DNA of 64,000 bases, taken from NCBI GenBank assembly GCA_944323735.1, contig CALUTO010000009.1, positions 1 to 64,000 on the forward strand. The letters run 5' to 3'. A program made the translations under genes and the position numbers. This document shows positions 1,508-11,155 of the stretch, in pieces (position 1 is the first letter of the stretch; each line of letters begins with the position of its first letter). Source of the stretch: Candidatus Gastranaerophilales bacterium. Lineage in GTDB: Bacteria > Cyanobacteriota > Vampirovibrionia > Gastranaerophilales > Gastranaerophilaceae. The notes under the pieces were generated by a model that searched no databases, had not been told where the DNA came from, and was given only the letters and a program-made list of their open reading frames with translations.

Positions 1508-1531
1508 GTGAAAGTTTTAGGATTATCAACC

Positions 1532-4441
1532 ATGCGTATTGAACATATTTCTACCATAAATACCCAAATCCGACGCAAAGAAACAACCGCAGCAAAAAAA
1601 CAGAATACACCGTCAAAAACAGAAGATTCACATCTTTTGCAGTCAAAGTTCAATGACCATTTGATTGCCTTCAAATCCAGAGTAGATAAAGGGCTGGATA
1701 GATTTTATGAAGCGAATAAGAACAGAATGCCGTTAACTGTCAGAAGATACGTATCCGCACTCGAGGACAAATCTCTTCTCACCCCTGCTCAGGCTCAACA
1801 AAGAGCATTCACAAAACTAAATGATGCAAAAAATGTACATGATATAAAAAATTATTTTCCGGATGAAGAATTGTTTTCAGATTTGATAGAACCTGAAAAC
1901 TCAAAAGCAACAAGAGGAATTTTGCAGTCTTTCAAAGAAAATGCAGAACTCCTTGCTCTTTCAGGCGACTCTATACTGAAAGACAATTCTGATTTTACGG
2001 TCTATCTGGTAAAAAAAGTTTTTCTTGAAACCAAAACAATAGACGAAATCAATAAAGATTTAGAAAACGACCTGAATGAAGATTTTAAAGCTGATTTTAA
2101 ATTTAAAAATAAAGACGCAAAATACATTTACTCCTCCACACTAAAATCACTCGGCATACAAATGCCGCCGTTTGAATATCAGCAGTCACTCAGATATACT
2201 AGAGACGGCTATTCGGATGCTGTCGGGGAAAATATCGCCCGTGGACAAAGAAATTTTTGGGACTCTCTTTCCTCAGAGGAAAGAACCGCACGTGCAAAAA
2301 AATCTGTTGAAAAATTCGAAAACTGGTGGAATTCATTTACGAATAATCAGAAGCTTGATATGATTGCAGACCAGCTGACGGCTATTGAGCTGTTGAAAGA
2401 TTTTAAAAAACAGCAGACTAAAGAATCAAAAAGCCAACCAGAGCAAGAAACAACAGAAACAGAAACAGAAACGAATACAAAACAAAAACAACATACAAAA
2501 ACCGGTTCATTAAAGCTCAGCAGAGATGAACTGTTTATAAAATGGGCATCAAACAATCTTAAGCTATTCGAAGCAAACCTGACAGAAGCGGAAAAAGATA
2601 CTCTTCACCTGAAACGTATGCAGCGGCTAACGGACAGATGGTCAAAAATGACTGCTGCAGAAAAAACAGACTATGTTTCAAAAATGAAATCAGGTTTAGA
2701 ACCGCTAAGATACACAATGATAGATGCATGGAACCACAGCATGGATTTGATAAAAGATTTATCCGTTTTTCTCAGGGAAAAACAAATATACAAACCGGCT
2801 GATATCCTGTATTCTTCAGAACAATTCAGCAGTTTTCAGTCTCAAATTATGTCGGAATTCTGGTTCAAATATCCGGATTACGCTACATCACTGGGCAATA
2901 ATATAAAGATTTCACAGGAAAAAGTAAATACAGCAATCAAAAGAGGCACTTTTGAAGAACTAAAAAAACAGATAATGAGGGATAAAAACCAGCGGATAAA
3001 AGAACTCGCAAAACTCCAAACACAAAATAGTTATCCTAAAAAACCCGCAAACACAAAAAATCCGCAGGAACGCCCTGAATACATGAAAGATTTTATTGAT
3101 TTATACAAAAGCCACGGACGTCTGGGCGTTATGGACATGCCGGAAGAATACTGGAAAGACTTCTTTGATACAATTCAGGAAAACTCTCCGGAGTTTGTTA
3201 GAATTTGGACAAAACAGTTAAAAGGAGAATATATAACTCCTGAAGAAGAAGCATATTCCGCTAAAATACGAACAACAGAAACACACAAATCCGCAAAAAT
3301 CAGCCGTGCAATAGAAGCAGCTATGGCTTCAGTTGCTTTTGACTGTCTGAAAAATCCTGATGTATACAAACTTTCCACTACTGACCTGAAAACAATACTG
3401 TACAACATCTATCACGGCTCAGAAGTAATAAGAATTAAGTCACACCAGCTGAATGAATATTTTGAATTTCCGGTAAAAAGCAGAAAAATAGATGCCAAAA
3501 AGATAGCATATCTTTATGATGTTTACAAAAAAGATATGACTGAAAACGAACTGAATGCAGTAGTATATTATTATTTCAGCCCGCAGGATAAAGAAAGCGA
3601 ACTGAAAGAGTATTTACAGACATACGGAAAATCAATTCTGCCGTTGTTTTCACTTAACAGTCTTTTTTCTGAAAAAATTAAATCCGCAATGTATGAAAAA
3701 TTTAAAAACAGAATGCCCGAAAATTTGAAAAATATTCCCTGCGCACTGGAATTGCACGGTGTAGGATTTGAAGAAAAGCTCAAACAGGCAAAATTTAAAT
3801 ACGGGGAAAAAATGGATTTTCTTCCAAAAAACTTTTTAGATATATATTTCAATGAAATAGCAAAACATTTAAGAATCAGTTCGCAAATAACCGTAGATGA
3901 ATTTGAAAAAACAGCCTGCAAAAAACGGAAAAATACAACTGAGCATATGCCGATGATGGTTTTTCCGAAAAATGTCATGATGGGACCTGTTAAACTATAT
4001 ACTCTCGCAATGGAGCAGGCACTTGCCGACGTATTATATGAAGCTACCGGAAACATCGAGGTGTACCGGATGTCTTATGAAGAATTGTGCAACAATATAG
4101 AACTTTTCAGGCTCGTAAAAAAATTCCCCTCAGAAAACAGACACTATGACAGCTTTTCACTGAAAAAAGAAATAGATATTTCCGCAAAAAAACATCTCAA
4201 TCTTTCACGCATTAATACACTATACAAAGAATATCTTGATAACATTAAAGACTGGATGCAAGAAAATGCGGCAAAATCAGAAGAACCGCCGGAGCTTGTT
4301 GATTTGCTATACTGTCTTAACCCTGATGAGGACATGCCGGAAAAAGACAGAGCTGTTGTGAAAAGAATACTCGACTACGAAATGAACCTCTCTGTCAAAC
4401 CGCCAATCGAACCGCATATTGCTGATGCCCTCGTTCATTAG
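1532..4441 (+). CDS. Large hypothetical protein (969 aa)
   Basis: I do not recognise this family. The protein is largely helical and hydrophilic, with no signal peptide or membrane segments, so probably cytoplasmic. About residues 305-325 form a low-complexity Glu/Thr/Gln linker (repeated TE) separating an N-terminal third from the rest. A short motif, W-[DS]-x-[LM]-[ST]-x-x-E-[RK]-T, occurs on both sides of the linker (FWDSLSSEERT and RWSKMTAAEKT), hinting at repeated helical modules. An in-frame GTG at 1508 is possible, but the ATG at 1532 has an AGGA nine bases upstream and is preferred. It stands alone; the next gene starts about 95 bp downstream. Confidence 0.75.
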   Translation: MRIEHISTINTQIRRKETTAAKKQNTPSKTEDSHLLQSKFNDHLIAFKSRVDKGLDRFYEANKNRMPLTVRRYVSALEDKSLLTPAQAQQRAFTKLNDAKNVHDIKNYFPDEELFSDLIEPENSKATRGILQSFKENAELLALSGDSILKDNSDFTVYLVKKVFLETKTIDEINKDLENDLNEDFKADFKFKNKDAKYIYSSTLKSLGIQMPPFEYQQSLRYTRDGYSDAVGENIARGQRNFWDSLSSEERTARAKKSVEKFENWWNSFTNNQKLDMIADQLTAIELLKDFKKQQTKESKSQPEQETTETETETNTKQKQHTKTGSLKLSRDELFIKWASNNLKLFEANLTEAEKDTLHLKRMQRLTDRWSKMTAAEKTDYVSKMKSGLEPLRYTMIDAWNHSMDLIKDLSVFLREKQIYKPADILYSSEQFSSFQSQIMSEFWFKYPDYATSLGNNIKISQEKVNTAIKRGTFEELKKQIMRDKNQRIKELAKLQTQNSYPKKPANTKNPQERPEYMKDFIDLYKSHGRLGVMDMPEEYWKDFFDTIQENSPEFVRIWTKQLKGEYITPEEEAYSAKIRTTETHKSAKISRAIEAAMASVAFDCLKNPDVYKLSTTDLKTILYNIYHGSEVIRIKSHQLNEYFEFPVKSRKIDAKKIAYLYDVYKKDMTENELNAVVYYYFSPQDKESELKEYLQTYGKSILPLFSLNSLFSEKIKSAMYEKFKNRMPENLKNIPCALELHGVGFEEKLKQAKFKYGEKMDFLPKNFLDIYFNEIAKHLRISSQITVDEFEKTACKKRKNTTEHMPMMVFPKNVMMGPVKLYTLAMEQALADVLYEATGNIEVYRMSYEELCNNIELFRLVKKFPSENRHYDSFSLKKEIDISAKKHLNLSRINTLYKEYLDNIKDWMQENAAKSEEPPELVDLLYCLNPDEDMPEKDRAVVKRILDYEMNLSVKPPIEPHIADALVH

Positions 4442-5390: not shown

Positions 5391-8174
5391 CTTCAATGAA
5401 GATAAGAAGTTAAAATGCTCAACATCTCCGTCTACTTTTGTTAAAAATATCTGACAGTCTTTTTCTTCTGCATCTATATCCGGAAGCTGGGCAATTTCCG
5501 CAGCATAATAGTTTGCTTCCGCATCATTATTGAAAGATACTCTGTTTGCAAGGCTGTTCAAAGAAATATTTCTCAGAAATCCGGCAAAACCTTTGTTATT
5601 ATTGCTGAATTTTGTGTATATTCTCAGCGTTGCATCTCTGGTCTCAAGGTCAAACCGGCCTATAATAAACGAACTGAGCTGAGAAGCAGAGGATTTTATC
5701 ATGATTCTTTCAACAACATTATTTTTTATCTGTAAATCACCGTGTATTCTTTCAAAATCTCCCTCGGGAACATTCACCAGATCCACAACCGTTGACGGAC
5801 TAATCATAGCCAGAGGATTTCTGAAAAGTGCAGCAAATTTCAGAGCATATTCAACAAGTCCGACTTTTTGAATTGTTCCGTTACGAATATCAAACTGAAT
5901 TCTGCCGTTCAATTTAAAAGAATCATCAGTGTTTAGTTCAATCAATCCCATAGCTTTACCCGTTATTTCTTTTTTCAGGGCAAGCAGTGTCGTAGCAATC
6001 AAATCAGAATTTATATCTTTTACACCCAGTCTGATGCTGTATTTATGGCTCATAAGGTCACATCTGACTTTCAGACTCGAAATACCTTCCGCAAAATCAA
6101 ATCTATTGGAATGTATCTCGAATATCCCGTTTTTGTCCAGTGTAAGGTTTGCTTTCAGATTTCCGAAGGTAATATCTTTATAATTTCCTTTTACAAGCTC
6201 AAAAATACATCTTTCAACTATCAAAAGCCCTGTATTAAAGGTGTAAGCATCATCACTTTCTTTCTCTGCCTTCTCCAGTTCTTCTTCGGAAACTTTTGTC
6301 GGCACCTGGCTGACTTCTTCTGTGTTCTGCTTATTCATAGAAAGCAGAACTTTTTCCACATCAATATTATCAACAGTCAGGTGTATATTTTTTACCACAA
6401 CAGGGAATATAAGCTCATTTTTTATATCGCCGCTGAATTTATATTCAGAACGTTTGAAACGGCCGAATGCATTTATATGTATATTATCTTTTGATGTGGT
6501 AAATTTCGCTTCTCTCACAGAAAGACGCTGGCTCGGAATACGCACTTTGTCCATCGAGAGTGTTCCGTCAAGGTATGGAGTCTTGCCGGTATTGTTAATC
6601 ATTTGTAGATTTCCGGCTATTTTACCGCCTTTGAAAAGCTTCTGTCCGATTAAAACATTCAAAAATTCGCTTGGCAGTGGGTTTGGTATTTCAAACCCCA
6701 GTCTTTTAACTATAAGCGTAGAACAATCTACCACCCCGTCTATTGTCAATATCGGCTTCACGCCTTTTGAATTTTTATCCAGAACAGATGCAATATAGTA
6801 ATTTATTGATTTTATATCCAGTATATTATTTTCAAAATGAAAGTCAGCTTTGACAGCTCTGTCCCATCCGGTCGGACTGAGCGATGCACCTGCGACAAGA
6901 ATATCCTGCCCTTTTGCCAGTTTCGACATGACTGTAATATCCATTTTGTTGTAAATAGATTTTACAATAACTTTTGTTCCGGCATCACCTATCAGAGTGA
7001 GAGGACAGCCGGCAAGTTTCGAGATATAGTCTTTTGTCAGTTCATTTGTAGCCTTTCCGGATGCTTCTATATACATGTCGACCGATTTTGTGTAATCCTT
7101 TATGGAGCCGGTCATTGTAACCTTATTTTTTACGGGATTTTTACCGTAATATCCGATGAAATCACTTAAGTAAATAGTTTTCGGTGTTAAATGAATTTTC
7201 CCTTTTGTGACGGTAACTGGAAGATCGTTTACAGGTATAACCTTTAGCGAGGACTGTTTTACAAAAACATCTCCGTTAAGCCCGTCTTTTGAAAGATTAA
7301 TCTGAAAATCCAGTTTGCCCTTTATATCTTTAAAGAAAGAAAGCATTTCTTTTCCGTTGGGAACAACGAGATTAGACTCCAGCAATGAAACTCCGTTTTT
7401 CAGATCAAAATTGCGGGAAGCAACATTTATATTGAGTTTATTTTTTTCATCAGAAGTTCCGTTAATATAAATCCGGGAATTATTTATATCAAATACACAG
7501 TTATCAATATTAAGCCTGCGGTCTTTGATGTAAACACTTTTTCTGTCATCCAGTGCAAAGAACAAATGTTCTTTATTTTTATTGATATTCACGTCAAAAT
7601 GAAAAAGTACATATTTGGGTTCTCTTTTATCAGAAATAATGAGCTTATTACCATCAACTTTGACAAACATATCAGGCTCGGCTTTATAGAGAATCTGCAG
7701 TTTTTTAATGTAAAACAGAGAATTAAACCAGCCGACAGTCCAGTCGCTCTTTTTCTGTTCTTTCTTCTCCTGCTGCGGAACTATAGCCATAAGTTTATTT
7801 ACATCAACAAAAACATAGTCCATTCCGACTTTTTTTAGCTCTATTCTGTGTCTTAAAATATCCGCAAATGAAAGATTTATGTGAAGTTTGTCAATCTCAA
7901 GCAATTTTTCCTGTTGTCTGGTAAGTAAAATTTTGTCGGTTTTAAAGCTCAAGGACGGAGAAAGAATGGTAATCAGCTCCGGATTTTCAATCTGTAAATC
8001 CGCTCCTGTAATGTCTTTAACGGTTTTTACCACATAATTTTGCACATCTTTATTGGAAACAGCATACGGCAGAACCTCTAAATACAAAACAAAGGGGATA
8101 CTAACAAGAACCATCGCAAAAACTGTTATAAATATTAAAACCTTAACTTTTCCTGATATTTTCATTTTTTCCAT
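5379..8174 (-). CDS. AsmA-like envelope protein
   Basis: A 931-residue protein with one N-terminal membrane anchor (residues 10-32) and a long beta-rich periplasmic body. The N-terminal region after the anchor (junction at about 45-120, with TGADLQIENPEL and LSPSLSFKTDKI) matches the start of AsmA/YhdP-type proteins. The C-terminal third (about 720-880, including RIQFDIRNGTIQKV and a segment on diagonal lipid-path-like strands) fits the AsmA C-terminal domain. Family members bridge the periplasm and are linked to phospholipid or glycolipid transport to the outer membrane, implying a diderm envelope. It is monocistronic and convergent with the gene to its left. AsmA family membership is fairly secure; the exact subfamily is not. 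Confidence 0.8.
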   Translation of the reverse strand: MEKMKISGKVKVLIFITVFAMVLVSIPFVLYLEVLPYAVSNKDVQNYVVKTVKDITGADLQIENPELITILSPSLSFKTDKILLTRQQEKLLEIDKLHINLSFADILRHRIELKKVGMDYVFVDVNKLMAIVPQQEKKEQKKSDWTVGWFNSLFYIKKLQILYKAEPDMFVKVDGNKLIISDKREPKYVLFHFDVNINKNKEHLFFALDDRKSVYIKDRRLNIDNCVFDINNSRIYINGTSDEKNKLNINVASRNFDLKNGVSLLESNLVVPNGKEMLSFFKDIKGKLDFQINLSKDGLNGDVFVKQSSLKVIPVNDLPVTVTKGKIHLTPKTIYLSDFIGYYGKNPVKNKVTMTGSIKDYTKSVDMYIEASGKATNELTKDYISKLAGCPLTLIGDAGTKVIVKSIYNKMDITVMSKLAKGQDILVAGASLSPTGWDRAVKADFHFENNILDIKSINYYIASVLDKNSKGVKPILTIDGVVDCSTLIVKRLGFEIPNPLPSEFLNVLIGQKLFKGGKIAGNLQMINNTGKTPYLDGTLSMDKVRIPSQRLSVREAKFTTSKDNIHINAFGRFKRSEYKFSGDIKNELIFPVVVKNIHLTVDNIDVEKVLLSMNKQNTEEVSQVPTKVSEEELEKAEKESDDAYTFNTGLLIVERCIFELVKGNYKDITFGNLKANLTLDKNGIFEIHSNRFDFAEGISSLKVRCDLMSHKYSIRLGVKDINSDLIATTLLALKKEITGKAMGLIELNTDDSFKLNGRIQFDIRNGTIQKVGLVEYALKFAALFRNPLAMISPSTVVDLVNVPEGDFERIHGDLQIKNNVVERIMIKSSASQLSSFIIGRFDLETRDATLRIYTKFSNNNKGFAGFLRNISLNSLANRVSFNNDAEANYYAAEIAQLPDIDAEEKDCQIFLTKVDGDVEHFNFLSSLKKIK

Positions 8175-9154: not shown

Positions 9155-11155
9155 TTATTTATTTTTCTTTTCTATTCCTGAAAAACGAAGGATTATCGGA
9201 CTTTCAAAACGTGTCTGCCGTCTTATAATATTTGCAAACTTCGCCGGATAATCTTCATATCCCTTAAGCTCTCCTGTTTTTATCAGTTCAACAACTCTGT
9301 CAATATATTTTTGCATATTTAGTTTTATTTCCGGATTAAATCTGTAAAAATCCTTTAAGAGCATATCTGATTTTTTCTGGTTGCAAAATTTACAGAATGC
9401 AGCGATGTTAGACCGCTCATTTCCGCCCCGTCTATCTCTCGGAATAACATGATCTGCGGTTATTACCGAATATTTAAACATATTTTGCACCATACCTTTT
9501 AACGGAGACATTTTCTGTAAAATATTAGGATGAACATACAAAATAGTTTCAAGAATATGCTTGTTTCTGATGTCGCCTCTCGCTTTGTTCGCAAGGTTAT
9601 ATTTTTTCTCAGAGTCCATTTTGAGCAATGTTTCGTCAATCAATATGTTATAGTCTTTATACGGAAACCATTTTTCAAACTCTTTATTAATAAAAGATGT
9701 TTTTGTTTTATTAATAAACTTACTTACCAGTTTTTTGTCATTTTCACTAAGATTGAGCATGCCAGCTTTGTATTTAATAACATCGACAATAGTCATCAGC
9801 TGTATATCCATATTCATACTCATTTTTTTTTGCAGAATGTCTATTATGTCTTTCTGTGAAAAATTCGGAAATTTATGATAAATATATTCATATTCATCTA
9901 ATATTTCTAAAAACTCGGGGCGCAAATATTTTTTATTATTTTCAATTATTTTGAACACCTCTTCGTCATCTTGCGCACTTAGAATTTCGTCCATTAGTTT
10001 CAATTTTTGCTCATGGGTCATTGTGGTTATTCCACAGCAGGCACATGGTACATTTTCAAAATTCAATATTTCAAAATCCAGATTGTTATGACGTTCGTCG
10101 AAAATTTTATTTTTCATTACTGTATTCAATGCATGTATATCAATGTTGCAGCCTGTCATTTTTTTTATGTTTTTAGCCTGATTGACCACATAAGATGCAG
10201 GCAGCGCAATAGCATTATCAGCAATCAAGTCCGCAATCTCCTGAAAATACCTGTTGAGATACAATACTGAATCAGGATTTTTTCTAATCCTGCCCAGAAC
10301 ACTGTTCTGGCTTTTTTCGCATCCGGCACACAAGAAAATATTGTTCACATCTTCATAATAATTATTACTCAAATTTTCAAATATTTTACCTGTTTTCGCT
10401 AAAACAGGCTGAAAAATTTTAGCGGTAATCTGTTCAGTACGATTACCACAGGGGGTATTTGAATTATCGTAAGCAAATAACATGTTGTACAAAAAAGCTT
10501 CTTTTATATTTGCCCTTGAGGAATAAGAAATATCCCTCTTTCTGGGACTGTCCATTGACAGAGTACTCCGGTTTATCAACTCAGAATAATAAGGATATTT
10601 TTTAATAATTGACTGGTTTTTATACGGCTTGATAAGCTCCTGCGCAGCTTGTTGTAATTTTTGCCTGTCGCTGTCTGAAAAATCCCCGTGTTCTGCCATA
10701 TACAAAAAACTTTCAGCCGAACGTCTCAGATAAGTTTTTACTCTTGATTTTGAAACCCTTGACAGAGCGGTAAATAATTCATCCATTGTTTTAACATTGT
10801 GTTCATTAACCTGAACCTGCGCATGTTTTATTATTTTTGAATAGACTTTGGGAATATACTCTTTGTTTTTTTGCAGAAAATCAATATATTCCTCCGGATT
10901 TTTTATATTTTTACTTTGTTCGACAAGTTTATTATATTCTTCTTTAGTCAGTGTTTTTACACCACATACGGGACAGTGCAAACCCTGAAGAGTCAAAAGT
11001 TCATTTTCAACTTTTGTTCTCCCAAAACCCGGCGGCAAATAAAATGCTTCCGGCAAAGTGCTATTCCGGGGAACTTTTTCGGAATTATCGCCGTGTTTTA
11101 GCGGTAATGTCTGCATATTATGATATTTTATAAACGGTAATAATATAATTTTCAT
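9155..11155 (-). CDS. Internally duplicated HNH-type endonuclease-like protein
   Basis: The 666 residues form two related halves. Each has a CxxC followed by G-[VI]-x-T-[LM]-T (C61/C64 and C371/C374), a later MDS-x-[RK]-K motif (201 and 513), an ITA motif (243 and 565) and a second CxxC (C276/C279 and C588/C591). Spacings are nearly equal: first to second CxxC is 215 and 217 residues. In copy 2 the ITA is followed by DHVIPRDRRGG and N-x4-FCKFCN, the HNH nuclease signature with zinc knuckle. In copy 1 the matching site reads ITAKIFQP, so the Asp-His pair is absent. HNH proteins cut or nick nucleic acid using a metal ion. Start codon is uncertain: the second Met (residue 14) is an alternative. 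No partner gene is adjacent. Confidence 0.75.
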   Translation of the reverse strand: MKIILLPFIKYHNMQTLPLKHGDNSEKVPRNSTLPEAFYLPPGFGRTKVENELLTLQGLHCPVCGVKTLTKEEYNKLVEQSKNIKNPEEYIDFLQKNKEYIPKVYSKIIKHAQVQVNEHNVKTMDELFTALSRVSKSRVKTYLRRSAESFLYMAEHGDFSDSDRQKLQQAAQELIKPYKNQSIIKKYPYYSELINRSTLSMDSPRKRDISYSSRANIKEAFLYNMLFAYDNSNTPCGNRTEQITAKIFQPVLAKTGKIFENLSNNYYEDVNNIFLCAGCEKSQNSVLGRIRKNPDSVLYLNRYFQEIADLIADNAIALPASYVVNQAKNIKKMTGCNIDIHALNTVMKNKIFDERHNNLDFEILNFENVPCACCGITTMTHEQKLKLMDEILSAQDDEEVFKIIENNKKYLRPEFLEILDEYEYIYHKFPNFSQKDIIDILQKKMSMNMDIQLMTIVDVIKYKAGMLNLSENDKKLVSKFINKTKTSFINKEFEKWFPYKDYNILIDETLLKMDSEKKYNLANKARGDIRNKHILETILYVHPNILQKMSPLKGMVQNMFKYSVITADHVIPRDRRGGNERSNIAAFCKFCNQKKSDMLLKDFYRFNPEIKLNMQKYIDRVVELIKTGELKGYEDYPAKFANIIRRQTRFESPIILRFSGIEKKNK

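Follow-up and report, generated by a model that had tools for sequence, protein, structure and literature searches.

The three residues of the HNH domain of SpCas9, H840, N854 and N863, follow one another in the spacing H-14-N-9-N. XPF-ERCC1 represents an arrangement in which an active nuclease domain is coupled to a dead homologue whose retained roles are binding and positioning. In the solved HNH enzyme TagI, the DNA site is formed jointly by two nuclease domains (PMC6212794). Our literature search, which did not extend to subscription journals, found no account of an HNH family in Gastranaerophilales or Vampirovibrionia, or of a tandem HNH/pseudo-HNH protein. Here we describe a tandem HNH/pseudo-HNH architecture that is well supported as real, and that belongs to an order-specific nuclease family.

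A doubled HNH module in one open reading frame

The window, by which we mean the whole stretch of 64,000 nucleotides analysed, corresponds to contig C9 in the 2.06-Mb genome of a gut bacterium from the cyanobacteria-related order Gastranaerophilales, and carries the gene as a single open reading frame of 666 aa with an ATG start and zero internal stops. The closest relative among named records is a protein from a Candidatus Gastranaerophilales MAG (L008, 51% protein identity). The gene is solitary: a WG-repeat-type gene on the opposite strand ends 7 bases off, and behind its 5' end lies the start of a PQ-loop-like gene, also on the opposite strand (both names were given from the sequence by eye). 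Its features are as follows:

9155..11155, minus strand: two-module HNH protein, 666 aa (open reading frame; 61 distinct two-module homologues)
11006..11155, minus strand: N-terminal leader, residues 1-50, MKI..P...FYLPPGF (pattern precedes copy 1 in most two-module proteins and also occurs on unrelated proteins of the genome)
10121..11005, minus strand: copy 1, pseudo-HNH module, residues 51-345 (homology to copy 2)
10964..10975, minus strand: first CxxC knuckle of copy 1, C61-C64 (60/60 invariant)
10385..10390, minus strand: site of the lost catalytic pair of copy 1, G256-K257, pairing with D568-H569 (alignment; DH in 0/60 homologues)
10343..10345, minus strand: retained structural Asn of copy 1, N271, pairing with N583 (Asn in 58/60)
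10319..10330, minus strand: second CxxC knuckle of copy 1, C276-C279 (60/60 invariant)
9206..10108, minus strand: copy 2, HNH nuclease module, residues 350-650, its two CxxC knuckles separated by a helical insertion (Pfam HNH E=1.2e-6, HNH_5 E=1.8e-6; AlphaFold2 model)
10034..10045, minus strand: first CxxC knuckle of copy 2, C371-C374 (60/60 invariant)
9449..9454, minus strand: predicted catalytic D568-H569 of copy 2 (DH or EH, together with an intact N592, in 50/61 two-module proteins)
9407..9409, minus strand: N583 of copy 2, structural Asn of the HNH motif (Asn in 54/60)
9380..9394, minus strand: second CxxC of copy 2 with N592, C588xxC591-N (C591 60/60; C588 55/60, otherwise His)

A preliminary description had proposed that the protein aligns with itself, and this was borne out by three kinds of comparison. 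BLASTP aligned 274 aa of copy 1 with copy 2 at 20% identity (E=2e-14), the Smith-Waterman score of 185 compares with 40.9 +/- 6.6 for shuffled sequences (maximum 77, n=500; z=22), and a profile comparison of the halves gave E=1.7e-31 in hhalign, with 11 copy-1 sequences set against copy-2 and single-module sequences, and E=7.7e-22 against single-module sequences only. Judged by sequence, the halves share a homology that chance does not explain. The paired landmarks named in the preliminary description are all present (C61xxC64/C371xxC374, M201DS/M513DS and C276xxC279/C588xxC591), with offsets of 310-312 residues. The register, which places F248 opposite F560, corrects two of its details: the pairing of ITA at 243 with ITA at 565 has an offset of 322 and is a chance pair, ITA-243 lying opposite residues 555-557, and ITAKIFQP had been put in the place of DH in a wrong register, the true counterpart being G256-K257. 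The HNH core claimed for copy 2 is indeed complete (D568-H569...N583...C588xxC591-N592), whereas copy 1 has G256-K257 for D568-H569 and E280 for N592, and keeps N271 for N583. Scored for the HNH catalytic residues (D/E-H, N and a final N/H), copy 2 therefore has the full set and copy 1 does not. Because the H-14-N-9-N spacing equals that of the SpCas9 domain, the three residues lost from copy 1 would correspond to the metal ligands and the general base, and the Asn that it keeps would be structural.

Matches to curated domains are confined to the core of copy 2. Pfam HNH (PF01844, 29.0 bits against a cut-off of 21.4) and HNH_5 (PF14279, 28.2 against 27.5) match residues 561-603 in copy 2 only, PHROG and Pfam HNH families match at 561-622 only, and no curated family covering the whole module was found. 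The NCBIfam IscB model also matches at 564-609 (E=3.9e-5), and a profile of the single-module relatives described below matches the HNH domains of Cas9 and IscB (Acidothermus Cas9, E=2e-8), which could point to an IscB/Cas9-like guided nuclease. However, the IscB match lies far below its cut-off (22.9 bits against 175) and covers the HNH core only; a RuvC domain, absent from the Pfam matches, a bridge helix and a PLMP domain were not found, and there is no Rfam guide-RNA family in the window, so that membership was rejected and a guided nuclease seems hardly credible. Similarly rejected was the MqsA antitoxin (CxxCG...CxxCG-HTH), which matches residues 54-107 around the knuckle only, at 15.2 bits against 30 (E=0.024) and, for the family TIGR03830, at 13.7 against a cut-off of 61.8.

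An AlphaFold2 model of copy 2 (four alignment rows, two of copy 2 and two of copy 1; pLDDT 76, pTM 0.71) runs from the CxxC knuckle through a helical region to the HNH motif, where it has two strands and a helix (module positions 215-220, 235-239 and 240-244, local pLDDT about 55-71), followed by further helices. Foldseek searches with this model returned nothing at E<0.3 in the PDB or at E<0.2 in a viral library, and similarity to Cas9 HNH domains, though in line with the profile matches, was weak (E>0.5); the helical region showed no known relatives in these searches and no Pfam or PDB match. The proposed alignment of the halves stands at the level of sequence and profile, and in the same order and similar lengths of the helices predicted for copy 1 (71-81, 87-96, 103-118, 124-156, 161-175, 183-198, 206-227, 236-251) and copy 2 (381-392, 397-406, 413-428, 434-466, 471-489, 499-508, 518-539, 551-563). 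These come from a full-length model (two-row alignment, mean pLDDT 51) that is too weak for the copies to be superposed or their relative placement to be read.

Age, maintenance and loss across the two-module proteins

Relatives were searched in 59 relatives and then in 191 and 241 genomes. Two-module proteins, of about 650-700 aa, are found only in the family of the window, where 61 distinct proteins from 11 genera share a mean pairwise identity of 26%; 60 of them are complete in copy 1, and residue counts are given on these 60. The DH pair is present in copy 1 of 0/60, the nearest being the Asn-His of L013, while C61, C64, C276 and C279 are each found in 60/60 and N271 is Asn in 58/60. The reading of copy 1 as a dead copy that keeps its zinc ligands, which an intact pair in homologues would have contradicted, is thereby upheld, and can be extended in two respects. 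First, copy 1 forms one clade (SH-aLRT 99) in a tree of 23 copy 1, 23 copy 2 and 22 single-module sequences, so that a single loss before the genera split suffices, and the dead copy is ancestral and not a product of recent decay. Second, between the congeners G001 and G002 copy 1 has a dN/dS of 0.13 and copy 2 one of 0.10 (dS is saturated in more distant pairs), and the former value indicates that copy 1 is maintained by purifying selection. Copy 1 evolves faster in protein (dN between the window and L009 is 0.48, against 0.24 for copy 2), and both copies are positively charged (mean net charge +5.6 for copy 1 and +5.9 for copy 2).

A further observation concerns the same two congeners. Between L068 (G001, C17) and L069 (G002, C4), identity is 91-100% over about 600 bases upstream and the first 370 bases of the HNH gene, and mostly 65-90% over the remainder of the gene; this step in identity is a recombination breakpoint inside copy 1.

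Copy 2 retains D/E-H and the last N in 50/61 proteins and has lost them in 11/61. On a tree from which the active-site columns were excluded, these losses require four or more changes, and some sit in second two-module genes beside an intact one (G068, G244, G236). The repeated losses suggest that cutting is not essential for every member. The zinc ligands of copy 2 persist, as Cys throughout or as His at one position in one group, and since they are kept where catalysis is lost, the zinc frame is more conserved than the catalytic site. These patterns lend weight to the view that the protein is a zinc-scaffold binder of nucleic acid or protein, in which cutting is secondary and catalysis has been lost piece by piece: copy 1 is dead everywhere, three of the four zinc Cys of copy 2 are unchanged in the losses and the fourth is Cys or His, and G068 and G244 each carry, by residues, one active-type and one fully dead two-module gene. 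However, the retention of all three catalytic residues of copy 2 in 50/61 proteins across a mean identity of only 26% argues for selection on catalysis, and we consider such a binder possible but unlikely.

As a separate observation, L079, L126, L066, L067, L108 and L109 are two-module paralogues in which both copies are without catalytic residues and all zinc ligands are kept.

Family distribution, genomic context and leader

Single-module members, of about 320-540 aa and sometimes with long C-terminal extensions, are multi-copy and diverse, and most have E-H in place of the D-H of copy 2. They occur in nearly all genomes of the window's family, and other families of the order have them too; their profile has zero matches in genomes from other orders of the class and, elsewhere in the phylum, two weak ones (E about 2e-13 and 5e-13). 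This marks out a near-universal, order-specific nuclease family of Gastranaerophilales, for whose whole module we found no curated family. Relatives of about 740 aa were considered as extra two-module proteins and rejected, their C-terminal extensions being helical and coiled-coil-like by eye.

Contig C5 of the window's own genome carries two tandem single-module genes on the minus strand (L006:4929-6002 and 5968-7317) with a 35-base overlap, which may show what the arrangement looked like before fusion. A separate HNH protein of 167 aa (CxxC...DHxxPxSxxG; L004 / L007:5228-5731) matches the HNH core only, and several relatives contain short open frames that match the core in a similar way.

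The two-module gene has a shared neighbourhood in 10/21 loci, consisting of NagZ-like, unknown, lipase-like, aquaporin-like and PgeF-like genes. In the window's genus the neighbours are others (AsmA-like, WG-repeat-like and PQ-loop-like), common to its congeners; names in the shared neighbourhood were given by eye. In the loci examined, none of the neighbours names a pathway. A search with PADLOC gave no link to defence, the best match (E=0.0089) being a type II REase in the region of the HNH core, and no defence neighbourhood was recognised among the genes named by eye. This setting also bears on whether the gene could be a selfish or mobile HNH element, such as a homing endonuclease or an intron or phage HNH, doubled by chance. 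Phages commonly carry HNH cores of this type, but no relatives were found in viral contigs, phages or plasmids, chromosomal synteny is kept, and the family is near-universal in its host family and essentially absent outside the order; membership among phage or intron homing endonucleases was rejected for want of any mobile-element association, and we regard a mobile origin as very improbable. Elsewhere in the window, a 977-aa protein (1508-4441, plus strand) has no Pfam match at E<=0.01, and its relatives lie near the two-module HNH gene in congeners.

In most members, the module is preceded by a leader of the pattern MKIxP[ILV], a polar stretch and then [FY]YxP[VI][SN]FxG. A comparable leader, M[KRN][IL] followed by an N/S/T/K-rich linker of 10-60 aa and [SN]FK[GA], is found on unrelated proteins of the genome, and the box [VILPTSA][SN]F[KRHTSGQN][GA] shows a 5.2-fold enrichment in residues 9-75 (p=6e-6; 395 ORFs in 487 kb of genome). 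Besides the window gene (11006-11155, minus strand), the bearers include L096:9830-10624, L096:12018-13199, L096:13216-14205, L100:1075-3822, L104:2753-3661, L104:3726-4979 and L105:3063-5432. We would guess that the leader is possibly a previously undescribed sorting signal of Gastranaerophilales. Its presence on single-module, two-module and unrelated proteins, together with its enrichment and the diversity of the multi-copy single-module members, is what a sorted or exported nuclease would lead one to expect, one that works beyond the cytoplasm or against a competitor or host, with the leader as targeting tag and copy 1 as adaptor. However, no known secretion domain was seen, CheR-like and AAA proteins are also among the leader bearers, and neither an immunity gene nor a secretion locus was recognised in the syntenic neighbourhoods, which makes export distinctly unlikely. 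One further bearer, L093:12462-18926 (minus strand), encodes a protein of 2154 aa whose residues 240-419 give a weak intein-splicing match (E=1.7e-5, under the cut-off).

Proposed mechanism and comparison with described systems

Our preferred though tentative reading, which we would put at somewhat less than even, is that of a chromosomal, lineage-specific two-module HNH (beta-beta-alpha-metal) nuclease in which copy 1 serves as a pseudo-dimer half for nicking or for cutting structured DNA. An ancestral one-module gene, comprising a CxxC knuckle, a helical region of about 190 residues and an HNH core with a second CxxC, was doubled in one reading frame. Ahead of the radiation of the host family, copy 1 lost D, H and the last N, the presumed metal ligands and general base, while its four zinc cysteines were kept. 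The family motif points to metal-dependent phosphodiester cleavage by copy 2, in which D568 and N592 would hold the metal ion, H569 would activate water and one DNA strand would be cut. We infer that copy 1 is a regulatory or DNA-binding partner of the catalytic copy, most likely standing in for the second protomer of an HNH dimer, as a half that is braced by zinc and grips DNA but has no blade. The single chain might then grip both sides of a substrate and cut one strand, resulting in a nick or a structured-DNA cut. In favour of this reading are the homology of the halves, the single clade and maintenance of copy 1, the positive charge of both copies, the shared chromosomal neighbourhood and the joint DNA site of TagI; against it speak the repeated catalytic losses in copy 2, the faster evolution of copy 1 and the weakness of the full-length model.

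The protein offers a well-sampled case in which a domain was doubled, one site was lost once, the dead copy was kept through the radiation of a bacterial family, and the second site was later lost repeatedly; with it, the role of a pseudo-nuclease half becomes testable.

Compared with the HNH superfamily (PF01844/PF14279), copy 2 shares the DHxxP...GG...N...CxxCN core above both gathering cut-offs, but differs in having its first CxxC some 195 residues before DH, with a helical region between, and in its fusion to a pseudo-copy. With IscB/Cas9 HNH domains it shares the motif spacing, as H569-N583-N592, whereas the two-module protein is without RuvC or guide parts. The likeness to XPF-ERCC1 is one of analogy only, as the latter has a PD-D/E-like fold, consists of two chains and acts in eukaryotic repair. 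A bolder extension of the analogy, which we think unlikely in its entirety, would make the protein an ancient single-chain HNH nuclease/pseudonuclease counterpart of XPF-ERCC1, a natural nickase or structure-specific enzyme with the dead copy as obligate DNA-positioning half, which in some lineages became a zinc-based binder, within an order-wide family bearing a sorting leader. TagI (PMC6212794) is a homodimer with an SRA domain, whereas here a single chain holds both modules, one of them dead, and has no SRA; common to both would be a single DNA site built from two HNH-type modules, which for the present protein is our proposal.
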